Assembly: GCF_039545795.1 (NCBI RefSeq) | Contig: NZ_CP154260.1 | Location: 3,353,001 to 3,417,000, forward strand | Direction of reading: 5' to 3' | Length of the DNA: 64,000 bases | From: Chitinophaga niabensis | GTDB taxonomy: Bacteria; Bacteroidota; Bacteroidia; Chitinophagales; Chitinophagaceae | Shown here: positions 27,420-60,513 of the stretch, in pieces | Layout of the letters: each line of letters begins with the position of its first letter | Position numbering within the stretch: the first letter of the stretch is position 1 | Program-made: the position numbers and the translations under genes | The notes under the pieces: model-generated | Database searches by the model: none | The model's input: the letters and a program-made list of their open reading frames with translations, nothing else | What the model was told of the DNA's origin: nothing

Positions 27420-28550
27420 TTATAAGTTGCCTCTCAGTTCCTGTTCTCTTTCAATAGATTCAAACAGCGCTTTGAAATTGCCTTTTCCGAAGGATTTAGC
27501 ACCTTTCCGCTGAATGATCTCGAAGAACACGGTAGGCCTGTCCTGCAATGGTTTGGTAAAGATCTGCAGCAGGTAACCTTCATCATCCCGGTCTACCAGG
27601 ATGCCCAGGTCCTGCAGCGGTTGCAGGTCTTCATCGATCTTACCTACCCTTTGCAGTAAGGTTTCATAATAAGATGAAGGAACGGTCAGGAATTCTATTC
27701 CCCTTTTTTGCAGTTCGCTTACTGTATGCACGATGTCATTCGTGGCAATGGCTACGTGCTGCACACCGGGGCCGCCATAGAAATCCAGGTATTCTTCGAT
27801 CTGTGATTTTTTCTTTCCTTCAGCCGGCTCATTGATGGGGAATTTGATACGGCCGTTGCCGTTGCTCATCACCTTACTCATCAGTGCGGAATATTCCGTG
27901 GAGATATCCTTATCGTCAAAGGATACGAGGTTATGGAAACCCATGGTTTTGGCATAGAAATCCACCCAGGTGTTCATTTCATTCCATCCCACATTGCCTA
28001 CGCAATGGTCCACGTATTCCAGGCCTGTTGGTAAAGGCTGATACGAACTCTGCCATGGCCTGAAACCGGGCAGGAAGGTACCATGGTAGTTCTTACGTTC
28101 TATAAAGAGGTGAACGGTTTCTCCATAGGTATGAATACCGCTGCGCACCACTTCTCCAAATTCATCTTTCTCTACTACCGGCTCCAGGTAAGGTTTTGCA
28201 CCACGTTTTACGGTTTCTTCAAAAGCAGCGCGTGCATCATCTACCCAGATGGCCAGTACTTTTACACCATCCCCATGTTCATCCACATGACGGGAAATTT
28301 CTGTTCCCTGACGTAATGAAGTAGTGAGTACAAAACGAAGTTTGTTTTGCACCAGCACATAAGAAACACGGTCTTTCACGCCGGTTTCCGGGCCTGCGTA
28401 GGCCAGTGACTGAAAGCCAAAAGCTGTTTTATAAAAATGAGCTGCCTGTTTTGCATTGCCTACATAAAACTCCACGTAATCGGTTCCGTTGAGCGGTAGG
28501 AAATCTTCTTGGTTTTGAGCCTGTTTAGGAGATACTACTGCAGTGTTCAT
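27420..28550 (-). CDS. hppD: 4-hydroxyphenylpyruvate dioxygenase
   Basis: 376-residue Fe(II) dioxygenase that turns 4-hydroxyphenylpyruvate into homogentisate in tyrosine breakdown. It has two VOC domains (about 20-150 and 175-345). The iron ligands are visible: His182 (EYVDHCVGNV), His265 (GVQHVAIAT) and Glu344 (FFEIIQRKG). Length and C-terminal helix fit the family. Cytoplasmic. Third gene of an operon with homogentisate dioxygenase, so two consecutive steps of the pathway are encoded together. Confidence 0.96.
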   Translation of the reverse strand: MNTAVVSPKQAQNQEDFLPLNGTDYVEFYVGNAKQAAHFYKTAFGFQSLAYAGPETGVKDRVSYVLVQNKLRFVLTTSLRQGTEISRHVDEHGDGVKVLAIWVDDARAAFEETVKRGAKPYLEPVVEKDEFGEVVRSGIHTYGETVHLFIERKNYHGTFLPGFRPWQSSYQPLPTGLEYVDHCVGNVGWNEMNTWVDFYAKTMGFHNLVSFDDKDISTEYSALMSKVMSNGNGRIKFPINEPAEGKKKSQIEEYLDFYGGPGVQHVAIATNDIVHTVSELQKRGIEFLTVPSSYYETLLQRVGKIDEDLQPLQDLGILVDRDDEGYLLQIFTKPLQDRPTVFFEIIQRKGAKSFGKGNFKALFESIEREQELRGNL

Positions 28551-28579
28551 AATAAAAAGGATTGTTTTGGTGTATGTAT

Positions 28580-29572
28580 TTATACTAAGGTTAAAGCATT
28601 TAAGTGCTTGTTGATAAAATCTATTTCTTCCGGTGCCAGTTTGATATCGATGGCCTTTGCATTCTGAACGGCCTGGCCTGCATCCCTTGCACCTACCAGT
28701 GCAACGGTGATACCGGGGCGCTCAATCGTCCAGCGGATCACTAACTGTGCCAGCGTGGCATTCTTTGTTTCCGCCAGCGGTTTGATCAATCCCAGGAATG
28801 CATTGATCCGCGCAATGTTATCCGGCTGATAGAATTTAGTGCCGGGGCGGTGATCTCCTTCTCCAAACTGATGACCAGGTTTGATCTTGCCGGTTAAGAT
28901 GCCGCGTTGTAAAGGGCTGTAGGCGAGTATACCTTTTTTATTTTCTATGCAATAAGGCACCAGCTCTTTTTCTACGGTACGCTCTACCATACTGAAAGGC
29001 ACCTGGTTGGAAGCGAGGGAAAGCACGCTCTCTGCCCGTTTCATCTGTTCCACATTGTAATTGCATACACCTGCAGCACGGATCTTTCCCTGCTCCTGCA
29101 AGCGTAATACCGCTTCAAATGTTTCTTCGATCGGTGTTGTTTCATCTGCCCAGTGGATCTGGTACAGATCGATATAGTCTGTACGAAGGCGGCGGAGACT
29201 GTCCTCACATTCTTTGATCACATTCTCTTTACCGGCATACTTATAGATATCGATGTCTTTGTTGCTGTTATCCTTACTTTTAAAGTAGAACTGCCCTTTG
29301 GTGCCTTCCCAGGTGAGCCCGAATTTGGTCAGGATCTGTACTTTATCCCTGGCGATGCCTTCCAATGCTTCTCCCACGATCTCTTCACTGGTACCCATAC
29401 CGTAGATAGGAGCCGTATCAATAGAAGTAACGCCCTGGTCGATAGAAGCCCTGATGGCTTCCCTGGCGTCCTTGCGTTCTGAGCCGCCCCACATCCATCC
29501 TCCAATAGCCCATGCGCCAAAAGTGATGGCGGAAACCTGGAGATCGCTTTGTCCGAGTTGTCTGTATTCCAT
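28580..29572 (-). CDS. Aldo/keto reductase
   Basis: 330-residue NAD(P)H-dependent reductase of the AKR (beta/alpha)8 family. The catalytic tetrad is Asp52, Tyr57, Lys83 and His140 (SIDTAPIYGMG; ILTKFG; LYQIHWAD). The cofactor-binding C-terminal segment is VALVGARDAGQAVQNAKAIDI. The substrate cannot be read from sequence. It sits between hmgA (15-bp gap) and hppD (29-bp gap), so it is expressed with tyrosine catabolism although it is not a standard enzyme of that route. Confidence 0.9.
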   Translation of the reverse strand: MEYRQLGQSDLQVSAITFGAWAIGGWMWGGSERKDAREAIRASIDQGVTSIDTAPIYGMGTSEEIVGEALEGIARDKVQILTKFGLTWEGTKGQFYFKSKDNSNKDIDIYKYAGKENVIKECEDSLRRLRTDYIDLYQIHWADETTPIEETFEAVLRLQEQGKIRAAGVCNYNVEQMKRAESVLSLASNQVPFSMVERTVEKELVPYCIENKKGILAYSPLQRGILTGKIKPGHQFGEGDHRPGTKFYQPDNIARINAFLGLIKPLAETKNATLAQLVIRWTIERPGITVALVGARDAGQAVQNAKAIDIKLAPEEIDFINKHLNALTLV

Positions 29573-29587
29573 GCTTAGATTTTTATT

Positions 29588-30745
29588 TTATTCTGCCCAG
29601 CTCATTACGTATTGCTGGTCTTCAATGCCGAGTGCTTCTTTTGTGATCTGTAAAGGATGAAAAGTATCTACCATTACCGCCAGTTCTTTTGTTTCCTTTG
29701 CGCCGATACTTTTTTCCACGGCACCAGGATGCGGGCCATGCGGGATACCTGCAGGGTGAAGGGTGATCATACCGCGGGTAACATGTTTACGGCTCATAAA
29801 ATCCCCGTCTACATAATACAATACTTCATCACTGTCTATATTGCTGTGATTATAAGGAGCCGGAACAGCCAGCGGATGATAATCAAATAAACGCGGGCAG
29901 AAGGAGCATACCACAAAGTTATTCCCTTCAAAGGTCTGATGCACCGGCGGCGGCTGATGCACGCGCCCTGTGATCGGTTCAAAATCGTGAATGGAAAAAG
30001 CATAAGGGTATTCACATCCATCCCATCCTACCACATCAAAAGGATGATGCCCGTAATGGATGGGATACATGATGCCTTTCTTTTTAATGAGGATGGTGAA
30101 ATCTCCTGCCTGATCTATTGTTTCCAGGTGTTGCGGCTGGCGGATATCCCGTTCGCAGAAAGGTGCGTTTTCCAGCAGCTGACCGTAGTGGCTGAGGTAA
30201 CGTTTGGGGAAACGGATAGGACTAAAAGATTCCACAATGAACAAACGGTTATCTGTATTGAAGAATTCCAGCTGATAGATAGTACCGCGTGGTATTACCA
30301 GATAATCCCCATATCCGAACTCCAGCATGCCATATTGGGAATGCAGGATACCGCTGCCTTCATGAACGAACAGCAGTTCATCCGCATCTGCATTTTTATA
30401 GAAGTAATCTTTGGTGCTGTGCTGTGGTGCAGCGAGTGAAATATGTACATCACTATTCACCAGTACCGGCTTGCGGCTTTTCAGGTAATCACTTTCCGGT
30501 TGTATGTTAAAGCCCTGGAAACTGCGGTGTTTCAGCATTTTCTCTTCCGCTACATGCGGCATCACACTGTAAGGCTCATCCACCTTTACAATCTCCGTTG
30601 GCGGGTGGCAATGATACAACAGGGAATAGTGGGAAGAAAAACCTTCCGTGGAAAAAAGCTGCTCGGAATACAATTTGCCATCCGGTTTACGGAACTGTGT
30701 ATGCCGCTTATGCGGGATCTGCCCAAGCTTGTGGTACTGTGGCAT
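29588..30745 (-). CDS. hmgA: Homogentisate 1,2-dioxygenase
   Basis: 385-residue cupin-type Fe(II) ring-cleaving dioxygenase; opens homogentisate to maleylacetoacetate. The iron site is seen as His300 and Glu307 (NHSNIDSDEVLYYVDGDF) and a His in HPAGIPHGPHPGA (330-342). Other family signatures are GDYLVIPRGTIYQ and HHPFDVVGWDGCEYPYAF. It is shorter than the mammalian enzyme, as is common for bacterial forms. The start at 30745 (MPQYHKLGQI) fits; the open frame reaches 30796. First gene of the operon. The next enzymes, maleylacetoacetate isomerase and fumarylacetoacetase, are not in the window. Confidence 0.95.
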   Translation of the reverse strand: MPQYHKLGQIPHKRHTQFRKPDGKLYSEQLFSTEGFSSHYSLLYHCHPPTEIVKVDEPYSVMPHVAEEKMLKHRSFQGFNIQPESDYLKSRKPVLVNSDVHISLAAPQHSTKDYFYKNADADELLFVHEGSGILHSQYGMLEFGYGDYLVIPRGTIYQLEFFNTDNRLFIVESFSPIRFPKRYLSHYGQLLENAPFCERDIRQPQHLETIDQAGDFTILIKKKGIMYPIHYGHHPFDVVGWDGCEYPYAFSIHDFEPITGRVHQPPPVHQTFEGNNFVVCSFCPRLFDYHPLAVPAPYNHSNIDSDEVLYYVDGDFMSRKHVTRGMITLHPAGIPHGPHPGAVEKSIGAKETKELAVMVDTFHPLQITKEALGIEDQQYVMSWAE

Positions 30746-30854
30746 AATGGGTTTAATTAGCGTATTAACGATAAAGCCGGAACATCGGCAATACATTAAT
30801 AACAGATTGAATTAAAAAAAGATGGAAAAAGAGAAGAGATTATAAGGACGAATC

Positions 30855-30873
30855 CATGGCAAGAGTAGCCATG
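30855..30873. promoter_or_regulatory. Inverted repeat upstream of hmgA
   Basis: CATGGC-N7-GCCATG, a perfect 6-bp inverted repeat, 110-128 bp upstream of hmgA in the 617-bp gap shared with the thr operon. Possible operator for the tyrosine-degradation operon. Position and symmetry are the only evidence. The remaining 30746-30998 shows no other gene or element I can support. Confidence 0.35.
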
Positions 30874-30998
30874 AGATAGCAGTAACTGCTTTGTGTACTA
30901 TATGATAGCATTGAATGCATGAGGCCTTAAAATTACAGTTATTTTTTATAAAACAAGGAAAAGTTTTAATTGGGCATCAGCGTAGCTTTAAAAGCCAA

Positions 30999-31027
30999 TT
31001 TGTCACAATATTGTCTGAATATATTTA
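30999..31027 (+). promoter_or_regulatory. Candidate distal promoter of the thr region
   Basis: TTTG (30999-31002), 17-bp spacer, TATATTTA (31020-31027; 7 of 8 to TAnnTTTG). The start would be near 31033, about 30 nt before a 14-codon ORF and 330 nt before thrA. It may be a second promoter of the thr operon. Confidence 0.45.
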
Positions 31028-31064
31028 CATTCCCATCAGTACAATTACCATAAAACACTCCATC

Positions 31065-31109
31065 ATGGCTCATAAAGAGAAGAATCCCTCCTTTTTAGAT
31101 ATTTTCTAA
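31065..31109 (+). CDS. Possible 14-codon peptide upstream of the thr leader
   Basis: ATG to TAA, encoding MAHKEKNPSFLDIF, about 30 nt downstream of a good promoter match. It contains no Thr or Ile, so it is not itself a threonine sensor. It may be a small regulatory or chance ORF; there is no family evidence. Confidence 0.2.
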   Translation: MAHKEKNPSFLDIF

Positions 31110-31123
31110 ATCTGATACAACCA

Positions 31124-31155
31124 TTTGCATTTTCGGTTTAAATGCCACACCTTTG
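31124..31155 (+). promoter_or_regulatory. Probable thr operon promoter
   Basis: TTTG (31124-31127), 20-bp spacer, CACCTTTG (31148-31155; matches the ATTTG-type -7 box except the first T). A start near 31161 would place the leader-peptide start codon about 20 nt into the transcript. Confidence 0.5.
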
Positions 31156-31179
31156 TAATGCAAAAGTCATAAAATAATA

Positions 31180-31275
31180 GTGTATTTATTCTCCTCACAT
31201 ATTATCCGTATCGCGCCACTCTCTTCGAGCGTGTACGGCACTATTATTACAACAACAACCACAACAACCCCATAG
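31180..31275 (+). CDS. Threonine-rich leader peptide of the thr operon
   Basis: A 31-codon frame from GTG (31180) to TAG (31273-31275), ending GTIITTTTTTTP. It has seven Thr codons in a row (31249-31269, ACA ACA ACA ACC ACA ACA ACC), another Thr and five Ile. This mirrors the thrL leader of enterobacteria, which is also rich in Thr and Ile and controls thrABC by ribosome stalling. The start codon is uncertain: GTG at 31231 would give a 14-residue peptide with the same end. It lies 87 nt before the thrA ATG, directly before hairpins that could act as an attenuator. Confidence 0.75.
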   Translation: MYLFSSHIIRIAPLSSSVYGTIITTTTTTTP

Positions 31276-31340
31276 GGGGTTAATTATTACATATCGTCCA
31301 TCGACCATTTAATGGTACACCCAGGCAGGGATGCCCTATT
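31266..31340 (+). promoter_or_regulatory. Attenuator region of thrABC
   Basis: Three short hairpins follow the Thr codons: AACCCC/GGGGTT (31266-31281, containing the leader stop), ACCA/TGGT (31304-31316), and GGCA-GGGA-TGCC or AGGG-ATG-CCCT (31324-31337), followed by ATTTCTATT. GTGTAC in the leader (31231-31236) is complementary to GTACAC (31315-31320), a possible competing pair. A ribosome stalled at the Thr run would cover the first hairpin. No folding energy was computed. Confidence 0.5.
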
Positions 31341-31362
31341 TCTATTCATCAATATACTTTTC

Positions 31363-33804
31363 ATGCAAGTTTTAAAATTCGGAGGTACTTCCGTTGGAAG
31401 CACCCAGGCAATAGAGCAGGTTTGCAGCATTGTAGCTGCGTATAAGCGTAAGGGTAATATGGCGATTGTTGTTTCGGCGATGAGCGGTATAACGGATAAG
31501 CTTATTCAATGTGGCCAGCTGGCCGGTCAGGGGCAGGAACAATACAAAACCCTCCTGCAGGAAATTGAAGCCAAACACCTGGACACCATCCGTGGCTTAT
31601 TCCCTATCACGGTACAAAGCGGCCTGCTTAGCCAGGTGAAGAAACAGCTCAATCAACTGGAATCTTTATGTGACGGTATCTTCCAGGTAGAAGAGCTCAG
31701 TAAACGCTCTTTGGATAAGATCATGAGTTTTGGAGAACTCCTCTCCTCCTGGCTCGTAGCAGAAAAACTCAAACACTCCGGGCTTTCCGCAACCTGGAAA
31801 GACAGTCGTGAACTGATTGCCACAGATGCGCAGTTCGGTCATGCGCTCGTTGATTTTGAGATCACCGATCACCAGATCACCAGTTATTTCCAGCATCAGC
31901 AATCTGAATACGTGGTATTGCCGGGATTCATTTCCGCTACTATCGATAAGGAAACCACTACCCTTGGGCGTGGTGGCTCCGACTACACCGCTGCTATTGT
32001 AGCCGCAGCCATGGATGCCAATGTACTGGAGATCTGGACAGATGTAAGCGGGATGATGACAGCCGATCCGCGCCTCGTGCCGCAAGCCATTGCCATTCCC
32101 CGCATCTCTTATGAGGAAGCCATGGAGCTGTCTCACTTCGGCGCCAAAGTGATCTACCCGCCCACCATTCAACCCGTAATGAACCGCCGCATTCCTATCT
32201 GGATCAAAAACACTTTCGCTCCAGATGATTACGGCACACTGATACAGGATAACGGCGAAAAAACCTTCCCGGTCACCGGCATCTCCGGCATCCAGAAGAT
32301 TGCATTGCTCACTCTTGAAGGCAGCGGCATGGTAGGAATTCCCGGGTTCTCCAAAAGGCTCTTCGATGCCTTACTTAGAGAAAAGGTGAACGTGATCCTG
32401 ATCACCCAAAGCTCATCGGAACACTCTATTACCGTGGGCATACACGAAAGTGATATGCTCAAAGCCAAGGCAGTGGTAGACAGTGAATTTGCACAGGAGA
32501 TACACGACAAACGCATAGAGCCGCTGATCGTGGAAAAAGACCTTTGCATTGTGGCGGTAGTAGGTGATAATATGAAGAACCACCACGGCATGAGTGGAAA
32601 ATTCTTCGGCGCACTGGGCCGTAACGCCATTAACGTGCGGGCCATTGCACAAGGTTCCACCGAAAAGAACATCTCCGCTGTGATCAATAAAAGCGATGTA
32701 AGGAAAGCCTTGAATGTGATGCACGAAGCCTTCTTTGAATCAGAAGCCAAACAGCTGAACGTTTTTGTGGCAGGCACAGGCAATGTAGGCGGTAAATTAT
32801 TAGAGCAGTTGCAATTACAACAGCAATACCTGCTGGATGAGCTTGGCCTGCAGGTAAGGATCATCGCCATTTCCAACAGCCGGAAAATGCGCTTCTCTGA
32901 AAGCGGGCTCAACCTGCAGCAGTGGAAAGAAGAACTGGCTACCGGCGATAATATGGATCTCGCTCAATTTGCACAGAAGGTACAGGCCATGAACCTGCGC
33001 AACAGTGTTTTTGTGGATAATACCGCCAGCGATGAGGTAGCAGGGTTATACGCTACCTTCCTGCAGCATGGCATTTCCGTTGTAACCTGCAACAAGATAG
33101 CCTGCTCTGCTGACTACGCTAATTACAAAGGTCTGAAAGACCTTGCCCGTAAGTTCAATGCTTCCTTCCTGTTTGAAACAAATGTAGGAGCCGGCTTACC
33201 GGTGATCAATACCCTGAATGATATGGTGCGCAGCGGGGACAAGATACAAACCATACAGGCGGTGCTCAGCGGAAGCCTGAACTTCATCTTCAATCATTTT
33301 GTGAATGGCGCCAACTTCCGCGAGGTAGTAAAAGCCGCACAGGATGAAGGCTATACCGAACCGGATCCGCGGATAGACCTGAGTGGTAAAGATGTGATGC
33401 GCAAGATCCTGATCCTGGCCAGGGAAAGTGGTGCTGTATTGGAAATGGAAGATATCAAAAATAATTCCTTCCTTCCGGATGCCTGCCTGAATGCCAAAGA
33501 CGTGCCTGCATTCTACGAACAACTGGATGTACACGCCCCTCATTTCCAGCAGCTTTTACAGGCAGCGGCAGATAAAGGAGAACGTTTGAAGTTTGTGGCG
33601 CAATACAATAACGGGCTTGCCTCTGTAGGCCTGCAATCCATCGGCCCGGCACATCCTTTATATCACCTGGAAGGGAAAGACAACATTGTATTGTTCACCA
33701 CTAACCGTTATTCCGCACAACCACTGATCGTAAAAGGCGCCGGTGCAGGGGCAGATGTAACCGCCTCCGGCATATTTGCAGACATTATCAGAACCGTTAG
33801 ATAA
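31363..33804 (+). CDS. thrA: Bifunctional aspartokinase / homoserine dehydrogenase
   Basis: 813 residues from MQVLKFGGTSVGS. The aspartokinase domain (about 1-290; KFGGTS, GRGGSDYTAAIVAAAM, FGAKVIYPPTIQP) is followed by ACT regulatory domains (about 310-455; ITQSSSEHSITVGI, NAINVRAIAQGSTEKNISAVI). The homoserine dehydrogenase domain (about 465-813) opens with VAGTGNVGGKLLEQL and contains the catalytic segment AAQDEGYTEPDPRIDLSGKDVMRKILILAR. It catalyses the first and third steps from aspartate to threonine; feedback control by threonine is usual for this fusion. The start at 31363 excludes 17 upstream non-family codons. Followed after 7 bp by thrB. Confidence 0.97.
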   Translation: MQVLKFGGTSVGSTQAIEQVCSIVAAYKRKGNMAIVVSAMSGITDKLIQCGQLAGQGQEQYKTLLQEIEAKHLDTIRGLFPITVQSGLLSQVKKQLNQLESLCDGIFQVEELSKRSLDKIMSFGELLSSWLVAEKLKHSGLSATWKDSRELIATDAQFGHALVDFEITDHQITSYFQHQQSEYVVLPGFISATIDKETTTLGRGGSDYTAAIVAAAMDANVLEIWTDVSGMMTADPRLVPQAIAIPRISYEEAMELSHFGAKVIYPPTIQPVMNRRIPIWIKNTFAPDDYGTLIQDNGEKTFPVTGISGIQKIALLTLEGSGMVGIPGFSKRLFDALLREKVNVILITQSSSEHSITVGIHESDMLKAKAVVDSEFAQEIHDKRIEPLIVEKDLCIVAVVGDNMKNHHGMSGKFFGALGRNAINVRAIAQGSTEKNISAVINKSDVRKALNVMHEAFFESEAKQLNVFVAGTGNVGGKLLEQLQLQQQYLLDELGLQVRIIAISNSRKMRFSESGLNLQQWKEELATGDNMDLAQFAQKVQAMNLRNSVFVDNTASDEVAGLYATFLQHGISVVTCNKIACSADYANYKGLKDLARKFNASFLFETNVGAGLPVINTLNDMVRSGDKIQTIQAVLSGSLNFIFNHFVNGANFREVVKAAQDEGYTEPDPRIDLSGKDVMRKILILARESGAVLEMEDIKNNSFLPDACLNAKDVPAFYEQLDVHAPHFQQLLQAAADKGERLKFVAQYNNGLASVGLQSIGPAHPLYHLEGKDNIVLFTTNRYSAQPLIVKGAGAGADVTASGIFADIIRTVR

Positions 33805-33811
33805 ATATTTT

Positions 33812-34750
33812 ATGAGCAAGCAAAATTTACAATCCGTTAAGGTATTTTCTCCGGCCACAGTAGCCAATGTGGCCTGCGGTTTTGATGTAATAGGTCTCGC
33901 ACTGGACGCCCCGGGTGATGAAATGGAACTGCGGATCAGCGCTACGCCCGGCGTAAAGATCACCGCTATTGAAGGCGCAAAACTTCCGTTGGAAGCAACG
34001 CAGAACGTAGCCGGCGTGGCTTTGATAGCGATGTTGCAGGAATACGGCCAGCCTGACCTGGGTATTGAAGTAAGCATCAAAAAAAATATACAACCCGGTA
34101 GCGGCATAGGCTCCAGCGCAGCCAGCGCTGCAGGAGCCGTAGTGGGCGCCAATAAATTACTGAATGATCACTTCTCCCCGGAAGCCCTGGTGCGCTTTGC
34201 CATGGAAGGCGAACGGCTGGCCTCCGGCACTCCGCATGCGGATAATGTGGCACCTGCCATCATCGGCGGCTTTACACTGGTAAGGAGTTACCAGCCCCTG
34301 GATATCGTGCGCCTGCATACACCGGATGATCTCTGGGTTACCGTTATTCATCCGCAGATAGAAGTAAAAACATCAGATGCACGGGAGATCCTCAAACAAA
34401 AGATCCTCTTAAAAGATGCGATCCGCCAATGGGGTAATGTAGGCGCATTAGTAGCAGGCCTTTACCAGGAAGATTATAACCTGATCAGCCGCTCGCTTGA
34501 AGATGTGATTGTTGAGCCTATCCGCTCCATCCTCATCCCTGCATTCCATGACCTGAAGATCCGCTGTAAAGAAGCCGGCGCATTAGGCGGTGGTATTTCC
34601 GGCAGCGGCCCTTCGGTGTTCATGCTGAGCAAAGGAGAAAGTAATGCCCGTTCCGTAGCGGATATGATGGAAAAGATCTACGCCCCCCTGGGTGTGGATT
34701 ACAAAATTTATGTTTCCCGGATCAGCACTTCCGGCGTAAGAGTAATTTAA
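33812..34750 (+). CDS. thrB: Homoserine kinase
   Basis: 312-residue GHMP kinase that makes O-phosphohomoserine. The ATP-binding loop PGSGIGSSAAS is at 95-105. N-terminal VFSPATVANVACGFDVIGLAL and C-terminal EAGALGGGISGSGPSVFML are family signatures. The start at 33812 is 7 bp after the thrA stop; a frame from 33776 would overlap thrA and is not family sequence. Second gene of thrABC. Confidence 0.96.
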   Translation: MSKQNLQSVKVFSPATVANVACGFDVIGLALDAPGDEMELRISATPGVKITAIEGAKLPLEATQNVAGVALIAMLQEYGQPDLGIEVSIKKNIQPGSGIGSSAASAAGAVVGANKLLNDHFSPEALVRFAMEGERLASGTPHADNVAPAIIGGFTLVRSYQPLDIVRLHTPDDLWVTVIHPQIEVKTSDAREILKQKILLKDAIRQWGNVGALVAGLYQEDYNLISRSLEDVIVEPIRSILIPAFHDLKIRCKEAGALGGGISGSGPSVFMLSKGESNARSVADMMEKIYAPLGVDYKIYVSRISTSGVRVI

Positions 34751-34756
34751 AATATT

Positions 34757-36052
34757 ATGCAATACTATAGTTTACAGAATCACCAGCACCGTGTTTCATT
34801 CCGGGAAGCAGTTATACAGGGACTTGCTCCTGACAAAGGATTGTATTTCCCTGCGGAGATACCTAAACTGGAAAAAGATTTCATAGAGCGGCTGGAAGAA
34901 TATGATCCGCTCTATATTGCACGCAAGGTGATCCAGCCTTTTGTGGGCGAGGATATCCCCGATAATTATTTAAAACAGATCATCCGCGATACCGTCACCT
35001 TCCCATTCCCTTTAAGGGAAGTGGAAGAAAACGTATATGCACTGGAGTTGTTCCATGGCCCTACGCTGGCCTTTAAAGATGTGGGCGCTAAGTTCATGGC
35101 GGGTTGCCTGGGTTATTTCCGCCGCGGAGATGATAAACCTGTTACCGTATTGGTAGCTACTTCAGGTGATACCGGCGGTGCGGTAGCCAACGGATTCTAT
35201 AATGTTCCCGGTGTTCAGGTGGTGATCCTCTACCCTTCCGGCAAAGTAAGTGAACTGCAGGAAAAACAACTCACCACACTCGGCGGCAATATCAGTGCCT
35301 TAGAGATCAATGGCTCCTTCGATGATTGCCAGCGGATGGTAAAAACCGCTTTCCTGGACCAGGAACTGCAGGCACGCCGGCAGCTGACTTCCGCCAACTC
35401 TATCAATGTAGCACGCTGGCTACCCCAGATGTTCTATTACTTTATGGCTTACCGTAAAGTGAAACAATGGCGTAAAGATGCTGTTGTATCTGTTCCCAGC
35501 GGAAACTTCGGTAACATCTGTGCGGGCATGATGGCTGCAGCAATGGGCCTGCCTATCCTTCACTTCATTGCATCCACAAATGTAAACGATACCGTTCCCC
35601 GCTATCTCAAAAGCGGTACTTACGAACCACTGGCACCTGTTCCTACTATCTCCAACGCGATGGATGTAACAGACCCCAGTAACTTTGTGCGTATCCTGCA
35701 ACTATTTGCGCAGAACGAAAGAGGCCTGAAAGCCAGTCTCACCGCCTATCGTTTCACAGATGAAGAAACCGTTGCGGCGATGGAAGAAGTATGCAGCAAA
35801 CACCAGTATCTCATGGACCCTCACGGGGCGGTAGGCTACCTGGGATTGAAAAAATATATGCAGTCGCATCCCGGCCATACCGGCATCTTCCTGGAAACAG
35901 CTCATCCGGTGAAATTTGCGAACACCATGCCGGAGGATCTGCAAAAAGAAATAGACACGCCCGAGCGCGTTATGCAGCTCTTCGATAAACAAAAAGTATC
36001 CGTAAAAATGGACGCAGATTATGAGCAGATGAAGGCATGGTTAATGCAATAA
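34757..36052 (+). CDS. thrC: Threonine synthase
   Basis: 431-residue PLP enzyme converting O-phosphohomoserine to threonine. The PLP-binding lysine is Lys107 in GPTLAFKDVGAKF. The phosphate-binding loop SGDTGGAVANGF follows. LTSANSINVARWLPQMFYYF and VPSGNFGNICAGMMA are typical of the class I bacterial form. It starts 6 bp after thrB, completing the operon. Confidence 0.97.
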   Translation: MQYYSLQNHQHRVSFREAVIQGLAPDKGLYFPAEIPKLEKDFIERLEEYDPLYIARKVIQPFVGEDIPDNYLKQIIRDTVTFPFPLREVEENVYALELFHGPTLAFKDVGAKFMAGCLGYFRRGDDKPVTVLVATSGDTGGAVANGFYNVPGVQVVILYPSGKVSELQEKQLTTLGGNISALEINGSFDDCQRMVKTAFLDQELQARRQLTSANSINVARWLPQMFYYFMAYRKVKQWRKDAVVSVPSGNFGNICAGMMAAAMGLPILHFIASTNVNDTVPRYLKSGTYEPLAPVPTISNAMDVTDPSNFVRILQLFAQNERGLKASLTAYRFTDEETVAAMEEVCSKHQYLMDPHGAVGYLGLKKYMQSHPGHTGIFLETAHPVKFANTMPEDLQKEIDTPERVMQLFDKQKVSVKMDADYEQMKAWLMQ

Positions 36053-60439: not shown

Positions 60440-60513
60440 CGGGATGTAGCGCAGCCCGGTAGCGCGCTTCGTTCGGGACGAAGAGGCCGCTGGTTCGAAT
60501 CCAGTCATCCCGA
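60440..60513 (+). tRNA. tRNA-Pro(CGG)
   Basis: 74 nt folding into a full cloverleaf: acceptor CGGGATG/CATCCCG with discriminator A, D arm GCGC...GCGC, anticodon stem CTTCG/CGAAG with loop TTCGGGA, and T arm GCTGG-TTCGAAT-CCAGT. The anticodon CGG is at 60474-60476 and reads the Pro codon CCG. No CCA is encoded. Downstream are a 12-bp palindrome (60515-60526) and T-rich sequence. Confidence 0.96.

Follow-up and report, generated by a model that had tools for sequence, protein, structure and literature searches.

The question raised by this locus is whether the short region ahead of thrA is a leader-peptide attenuator, and if so by which means the position of a ribosome would be signalled to RNA polymerase. 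Amino-acid attenuation is a textbook system, best known from Proteobacteria and Actinobacteria, and start sites of Bacteroidota function without Shine-Dalgarno pairing. A defined element of this kind in Bacteroidota would thus offer a concrete model of ribosome-position signalling to RNA polymerase without such pairing. The DNA analysed here, hereafter the window, is a stretch of 64,000 nucleotides from Chitinophaga niabensis. Its plus strand holds thrA, encoding bifunctional aspartate kinase/homoserine dehydrogenase I (31363..33804, with the ATG start codon at 31363; NCBIfam NF006959, 1041.7 bits, cut-off 726), thrB, encoding homoserine kinase (33812..34750; NCBIfam NF002288, 403.3 bits, cut-off 194), and thrC, encoding threonine synthase (34757..36052; NCBIfam TIGR00260, 291.1 bits, cut-off 167.1).

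A Thr/Ile-rich frame ahead of thrABC

A preliminary description of this DNA had claimed a GTG-initiated frame of 31 codons, with seven consecutive Thr codons, five Ile codons and then Pro and a stop, and reading of the sequence recovered each of these parts. The leader peptide frame (31180..31275, plus strand) starts with GTG at 31180-31182, continues through 31 codons to TAG at 31273-31275 and translates as VYLFSSHIIRIAPLSSSVYGTIITTTTTTTP. It holds eight Thr codons, seven of them in a row at 31249-31269, and five Ile codons, making it a candidate Thr/Ile sensor. A putative promoter (31124..31155, plus strand) precedes the frame, with TTTG at 31124-31127, 20 bases and CACCTTTG at 31148-31155, which we take to fit the Bacteroidota -33/-7 consensus. 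It ends at 31155, 24 bases 5' of the leader GTG, and TTTG is found within 60 nt upstream of that codon in 36 of 36 genomes of the genus.

These genus genomes originate from a first search of 59 genomes, among which 36, including the source genome, belong to Chitinophaga and each carry a full-length thrA. All 36 keep an open frame between the GTG and the Thr run despite a length range of 31-43 codons, with 4-10 Thr and 3-7 Ile codons. Thr and Ile account for 24% and 14% of the leader residues in the genus, and for 29% and 17% in other Chitinophagaceae. Across the eight codons preceding Pro in the genus leaders, the mean entropy at codon positions 1, 2 and 3 is 0.23, 0.55 and 1.16 bits, respectively. 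The interchange between Thr and Ile, combined with drifting synonymous positions, therefore points to a translated sensor and not to a nucleotide repeat. The codon directly before Pro is invariant in the genus, and the same bases are needed for pairing of the hairpin termed P3 below. Thus, the translated Thr/Ile leader peptide that had been proposed to precede thrABC is backed by the genus-wide open frame and the codon-position entropies, and judged from these sequences it very likely senses Thr and Ile.

Helices and unpaired motifs of the leader RNA

The stop codon had been said to lie within a hairpin, with two further hairpins upstream of thrA, and all three are present. P3 (31266..31281, plus strand), which is defined by pairing and covariation in relatives, is formed by AACCCC and GGGGTT and exposes the stop codon in its ATAG loop (31272-31275). 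P4 (31304..31316, plus strand) pairs ACCAT at 31304-31308 with ATGGT at 31312-31316, and the last of the three, P5, pairs GGCA with TGCC at 31324-31335. In the genus 98.1% of the P3 cells are paired, with little variation, while in 100 family sequences, mostly of other genera, 99.5% are paired and three of the six pairs have changed on both sides. The same 100 sequences give 86.9% paired cells for P4 and both-side changes in five of five pairs. The covariation score reaches 0.473, against 0.143 for shuffles and at most 0.094 for slid controls, in an alignment that, being fitted to the model, is biased in its favour. The leader stop overlaps the P3 loop in 86 of 99 leaders and is placed on or after the 3' arm in the other 13. 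Hence, as anticipated in the preliminary description, the upstream regions of relatives retain the Thr run and the paired hairpins against a background of drifting bases.

The GTG start is itself paired, a feature absent from that description. This P1 helix (31173..31248, plus strand) joins 31173-31183, with the start codon, to 31238-31248, with the first Thr and two Ile codons. A weak inner hairpin, P2 (31206..31238, plus strand), is predicted from 31206-31210/31234-31238 and 31212-31216/31229-31233, its outermost pair competing with P1 at 31238 in the predicted fold. The best P1 helix takes in the start codon in 35 of the 36 genus genomes, with a mean score of 11.25 compared to 6.81 for shuffled sequences, and 28 of 36 surpass the 95% level of shuffles; L028 has no start-codon helix and L032 employs another partner. 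For other Chitinophagaceae (n = 81) the native score of 9.1 exceeds both that of swapped partners (7.94, p 1.3e-7) and that of shuffles (7.06, p 3e-18), with only 21 of 81 leaders above the 95% shuffle level. As judged by the swapped control, start region and Thr codons are thus somewhat complementary anyway. Of 67 helices scoring at least 8 among all 90 leaders tested, 57 include the start codon. These 90 leaders were retained by the contiguous-helix test out of 101 family and genus loci, a set in which the leader of the window and some near-identical neighbours are counted. Dropped were leaders whose last 16 codons hold fewer than four Thr, those ending LCI, RKG, LGF, GIK or LGL (stop past P3) and those lacking a start in codons 24-40. 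The contiguous-helix test was chosen after, and hence not independently of, a bulge-tolerant duplex test of start against Thr region, which was weak (p 0.025 in Chitinophagaceae, 0.0037 in Flavobacteriales), with native duplexes under the 5% level in five of 84 and three of 29 leaders, respectively. The start codons of the 90 leaders are GTG in 44, ATG in 39 and TTG in seven, and the ability of GUG to pair with Thr codons may be what favours GTG.

The leader also contains an unpaired CATATNATCC-like motif. A ACATATCATC-like sequence appears twice, within the frame about 17 nt past the start codon (by eye) and again 8-12 nt past P3. In the window these copies are motif 1, CATATTATCC (31198..31207, plus strand), inside the leader frame, and motif 2, CATATCGTCC (31290..31299, plus strand), after P3. 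CATAT or CATAC of motif 1 is read in phases 0, 1 and 2 in 11, 25 and one leaders of the genus and in 47, 16 and five of the 90-leader set, which partly overlaps the former; as the reading phases differ, selection acts on the bases. At motif 2, 87 of 99 family leaders carry CATAY no farther than 29 nt past P3. The pattern CATATYAYC-N1-6-GGGC matched 24 times in six family genomes, five times outside frames of at least 400 nt; four of these five are thr leaders and one (L151) is without explanation. The latter, a CATATCATCAGTTGGGC match around position 1500 of L151 (genome G199), is located outside long frames, is not upstream of thrA and has no Thr run. Inspection by eye gave no consistent partner for motif 2 in the thrA start, the 3' arm of P3 or GGAT stretches after P4. 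The sequence comparisons support the view that the leader frame is translated and that the Thr/Ile codons, P1, P3, P4 and motif 2 are under selection.

Distribution within and beyond the Chitinophagaceae

A covariance model, R1, covering the end of the Thr run, P3, motif 2 and P4, matched 26 of 195 family genomes, and all 26 sites precede thrA, as judged by pattern for 24 and by eye for L063 and L070. A second match of R1 in the source genome, at E 3.17 and without a Thr leader, was taken as chance, and an exact search with CACATATCRTCC for another genomic copy returned a lone match within a 676-codon frame. The second model, R2, was built from 38 sequences; with E of at most 0.01 it matched 236 of the 394 family genomes, corresponding to 67 of 101 genera, and some of the weak matches among these may be chance. 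In this search, which ran under stricter filters, 158 of the 394 genomes gave no R2 match. An aspartate kinase start follows the leader stop by at most 420 nt in 99 of the 101 family and genus loci, at a median distance of 103 nt; the remaining two are L063, which has a kinase-like start, and L079, a shortened locus that was left out. The spacer from leader stop to thrA is 186-243 nt in L056, L068 and L117, representing a few genera, compared to roughly 100 nt elsewhere.

Across the order, 149 genomes yielded 16 matches, all in Chitinophagaceae and one of them a chance match in a coding frame. Weak matches in G080 (L186) and G089 (L185) likewise fall within coding frames and seem to be chance matches. 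In the order's other families, eight thrA loci (L037-L044) contained no frame with five Thr per 14 codons.

A scan of named relatives, from which 80 thrA loci were retained, showed at least five Thr in 14 codons at 54 loci and fewer at 26. These 54 Thr-rich leaders divide into 21 from Chitinophagaceae and 33 from outside, such as Flavobacterium, Kordia, Tamlana and Polaribacter, a rough split based on record titles; L247, labelled Flavobacterium, resembles the Chitinophagaceae form. A P3-like hairpin is found at the stop of 31 of the 33 outside leaders, and in 15 of these 31 CATAT follows P3 by at most 35 nt, where shuffles predict 10%. Motif 1 is rarer there, with CATAT upstream in four of the 31. 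In Hymenobacter roseosalivarius (L206) the Thr run upstream of thrA is shorter, at four Thr per 14 codons, and its stop codon lies within a CCCG/CGGG hairpin; by eye this looks like the same element in reduced form.

In a sample of the phylum, thrA was detected in 84 of 118 genomes at E up to 1e-150, at 85 places, of which 69 were read besides the window's own. A Thr-rich frame with P3 was present at 16 of the 69: two of three loci in family f1, seven of eight in f25, the single locus of f24, all three of f28 (with a differing P3) and three of ten in f41, a family of the same phylum and of a different class from the source organism. One f41 locus (L279) carries CATATCGTCCATTGGGC after P3, nearly the Chitinophagaceae form. 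Comparable leaders are thus found ahead of thrA in Flavobacteriaceae and in a second class. The Thr-rich leaders of f28 (L292, L293 and L295) end in a differently built stop hairpin (ACGGGGTGACCCGT and the like), and AGGCTTTTGCCTTTTTT comes after the leader of L293. Among the 40 most distant thrA loci that were read (L296-L335), five Thr were reached in L305 only, without P3.

Termination, ribosome position and the mode of control

P5, GGCA-GGGA-TGCC followed by CTATTTCTATTC (31324..31347, plus strand), is a terminator-like site. It is weak (dG -4.4, six T in ten) and scores above the 95% level of shuffles. Among the 94 leaders with thrA 60-135 nt past the stop, to which the count was limited, only 22 have a terminator-like site above that level, about four times the expected share. 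A consensus terminator scan of 30600-31800 detected none on the plus strand, and no antiterminator was found in the leader. The C-G skew is 0.43 in the leader, the 99.5th percentile of the window, and 0.33 downstream, the 97.6th; judged by base composition, a C-rich, G-poor leader would suit Rho, though Thr codons alone raise the skew. Two loci of family f23 (L286 and L289) present, by eye, a classical-looking terminator, a long GC-rich hairpin with a T run after a Thr-rich frame, and L289 weakly resembles Rfam RF00506 (31.7 bits, cut-off 55, E 0.027). Thus, a classical form seems to exist in the phylum.

We then placed ribosome masks on 121 leaders, those of the family set having thrA no more than 135 nt away, and refolded them in silico. 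In this folding model the start codon pairs at 0.80, 0.80 and 0.86 with the ribosome on the first Thr, the middle Thr and the stop, respectively, and at 0.87 unmasked. P3 is the element most sensitive to ribosome position: a ribosome at the stop abolishes it and one in mid-run weakens it. Pairing of the motif 2 region rises somewhat under a mid-run ribosome (0.34 to 0.47 at +20). Past +30, counted from the stop, pairing changes by at most 0.06 under the masks. With the loss or weakening of P3 and the small change of P1, the model suggests that P3, and weakly also P1, reads where the ribosome stands.

Taken from sequence, the region is probably a thrABC leader-peptide attenuator that gauges charged Thr- and Ile-tRNA through ribosome movement on the Thr/Ile-rich frame. 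For its mode of action, the classical arrangement of thrL would have a ribosome stalled on the Thr codons give rise to an antiterminator, so that an intrinsic terminator, P5 or P4, is blocked. The order of leader, hairpins and thrA agrees with such a scheme, as do the P5 site of the window, the 22 of 94 leaders above the shuffle level and the strong terminators behind Thr-rich frames in L286 and the weakly RF00506-like L289. However, the plus strand terminator scan was empty, 72 of the 94 leaders do not exceed the 95% level, and the masks hardly alter pairing past +30 in the 121 leaders. The likeness to enterobacterial thrL logic claimed in the preliminary description is therefore not supported: terminator-like sites stand out in a minority of leaders, no antiterminator was found, the folding model shows no switch past +30, RF00506 is not matched, and we consider the classical scheme unlikely. 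A chance ACA/ACC-rich repeat without coding role, which the run resembles as a simple repeat when the window is viewed alone, is refuted by the comparison, where frame, codon identity and covarying hairpins are all conserved, leaving it next to no probability.

Alternatively, P3 and motif 2 (and motif 1) could hold the polymerase for a ribosome whose arrival or absence decides on continuation. Motif 2 is located 8-12 nt past a hairpin, as is typical of hairpin pauses, the bases of motif 1 are conserved across reading phases, and P3 responds most to ribosome position in the folding model. On the other hand, motif 1 becomes less distinct beyond the family (CATAT in four of 31), and we attach a rather low probability to a pausing mechanism. 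Reinitiation, by which the short frame would merely boost thrA translation without sensing, is a role proposed generally for short leader genes in the available text of PMC4833913, which gives a distance peak of 11-14 bp for Bacteroidetes; the median of 103 nt between leader stop and thrA and the selection on Thr/Ile codons argue against it, and make it highly improbable here.

We favour ribosome occupancy, together with a lock on the start codon and termination that is weak or depends on a factor; a polymerase pause at motif 2 is a serious alternative. Under this occupancy mechanism, with ample Thr and Ile the ribosome would reach the stop codon, melt P3 and depart, P1 would shut over the start codon and keep the leader ribosome-free, and transcription would tend to stop short of thrA. 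Upon starvation, the ribosome would stall on the Thr/Ile run, masking the P1 3' arm and occupying the leader, and the polymerase would get to thrA. What ends transcription is probably no strong terminator of the enterobacterial type but a weak or factor-dependent signal, either P4/P5 or the action of Rho on a leader rich in C and poor in G, and this is the least certain step. Weighing against the favoured reading are the 158 family genomes that gave no match, the modest P1 scores across the family, the small effect of masked Thr codons on start-codon pairing and the lack of a conserved terminator. The start-codon lock and the conserved motif become directly testable through base changes. More broadly, and only tentatively, several families in at least two classes of Bacteroidota may share a thr attenuator without a terminator/antiterminator pair, an undescribed RNA family in which sensor codons would lock the start, a hairpin would hold the stop and unpaired CATATNRTCC, in two copies in Chitinophagaceae, would signal to polymerase, NusG/Rho or another factor.

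Enterobacterial thrL (RF00506) has the same general layout, with a short Thr/Ile-rich leader frame before thrABC and hairpins downstream of the sensor codons. In contrast, the window's leader has its stop codon in a hairpin, its start codon paired with sensor codons and a conserved unpaired motif, and no strong conserved terminator. RF00506 gave no match to it at gathering thresholds or at E up to 1, and no family of Rfam 15 matches this leader, which thereby supplies an RNA family unmatched by that release. In tnaC-type Rho-dependent leader-peptide control, similarly, ribosome occupancy of a short frame would decide polymerase access, and the C-rich, G-poor thr leader is alike in this respect; tnaC senses free tryptophan via the nascent peptide, whereas the sensor of the thr leader would be runs of hungry codons. 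A T-box riboswitch was considered because of GGTGGTAC in relatives, which recalls the T-box sequence, and was rejected, as Rfam gave no T-box match in the window at gathering thresholds or in nine loci at E up to 1. Bacteroid-trp (RF01692), a tryptophan leader, matched none of the 59 relatives, source genome included, while the control Bacteroides ihuae did match. It is listed as a candidate cis-regulatory RNA of Bacteroidetes in the available text of PMC2864571. For Flavobacterium psychrophilum, strong clues of leader peptide attenuation upstream of amino acid operons were derived from structured 5' regions (PMC9723704, available text), the same type of control in the same phylum; the main text of that paper, as available, names neither threonine nor the architecture. 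Leader-like short frames are also described for Bacteroides thetaiotaomicron in the available text of PMC7366714. A search of the open-licence literature, a scope outside which most subscription papers fall, found no paper on a threonine leader in Bacteroidota.

Elsewhere in the window, a tRNA gene at 60440-60513 (plus strand, 66.7 bits) is the sole Rfam match at gathering thresholds. Three minus-strand genes at 27420-30796 point away from the thr promoter, encoding a glyoxalase/dioxygenase-superfamily protein (27420-28550), an aldo/keto reductase (28580-29572) and a homogentisate 1,2-dioxygenase domain protein (HgmA_N, 29588-30796), and perhaps form a tyrosine degradation cluster.
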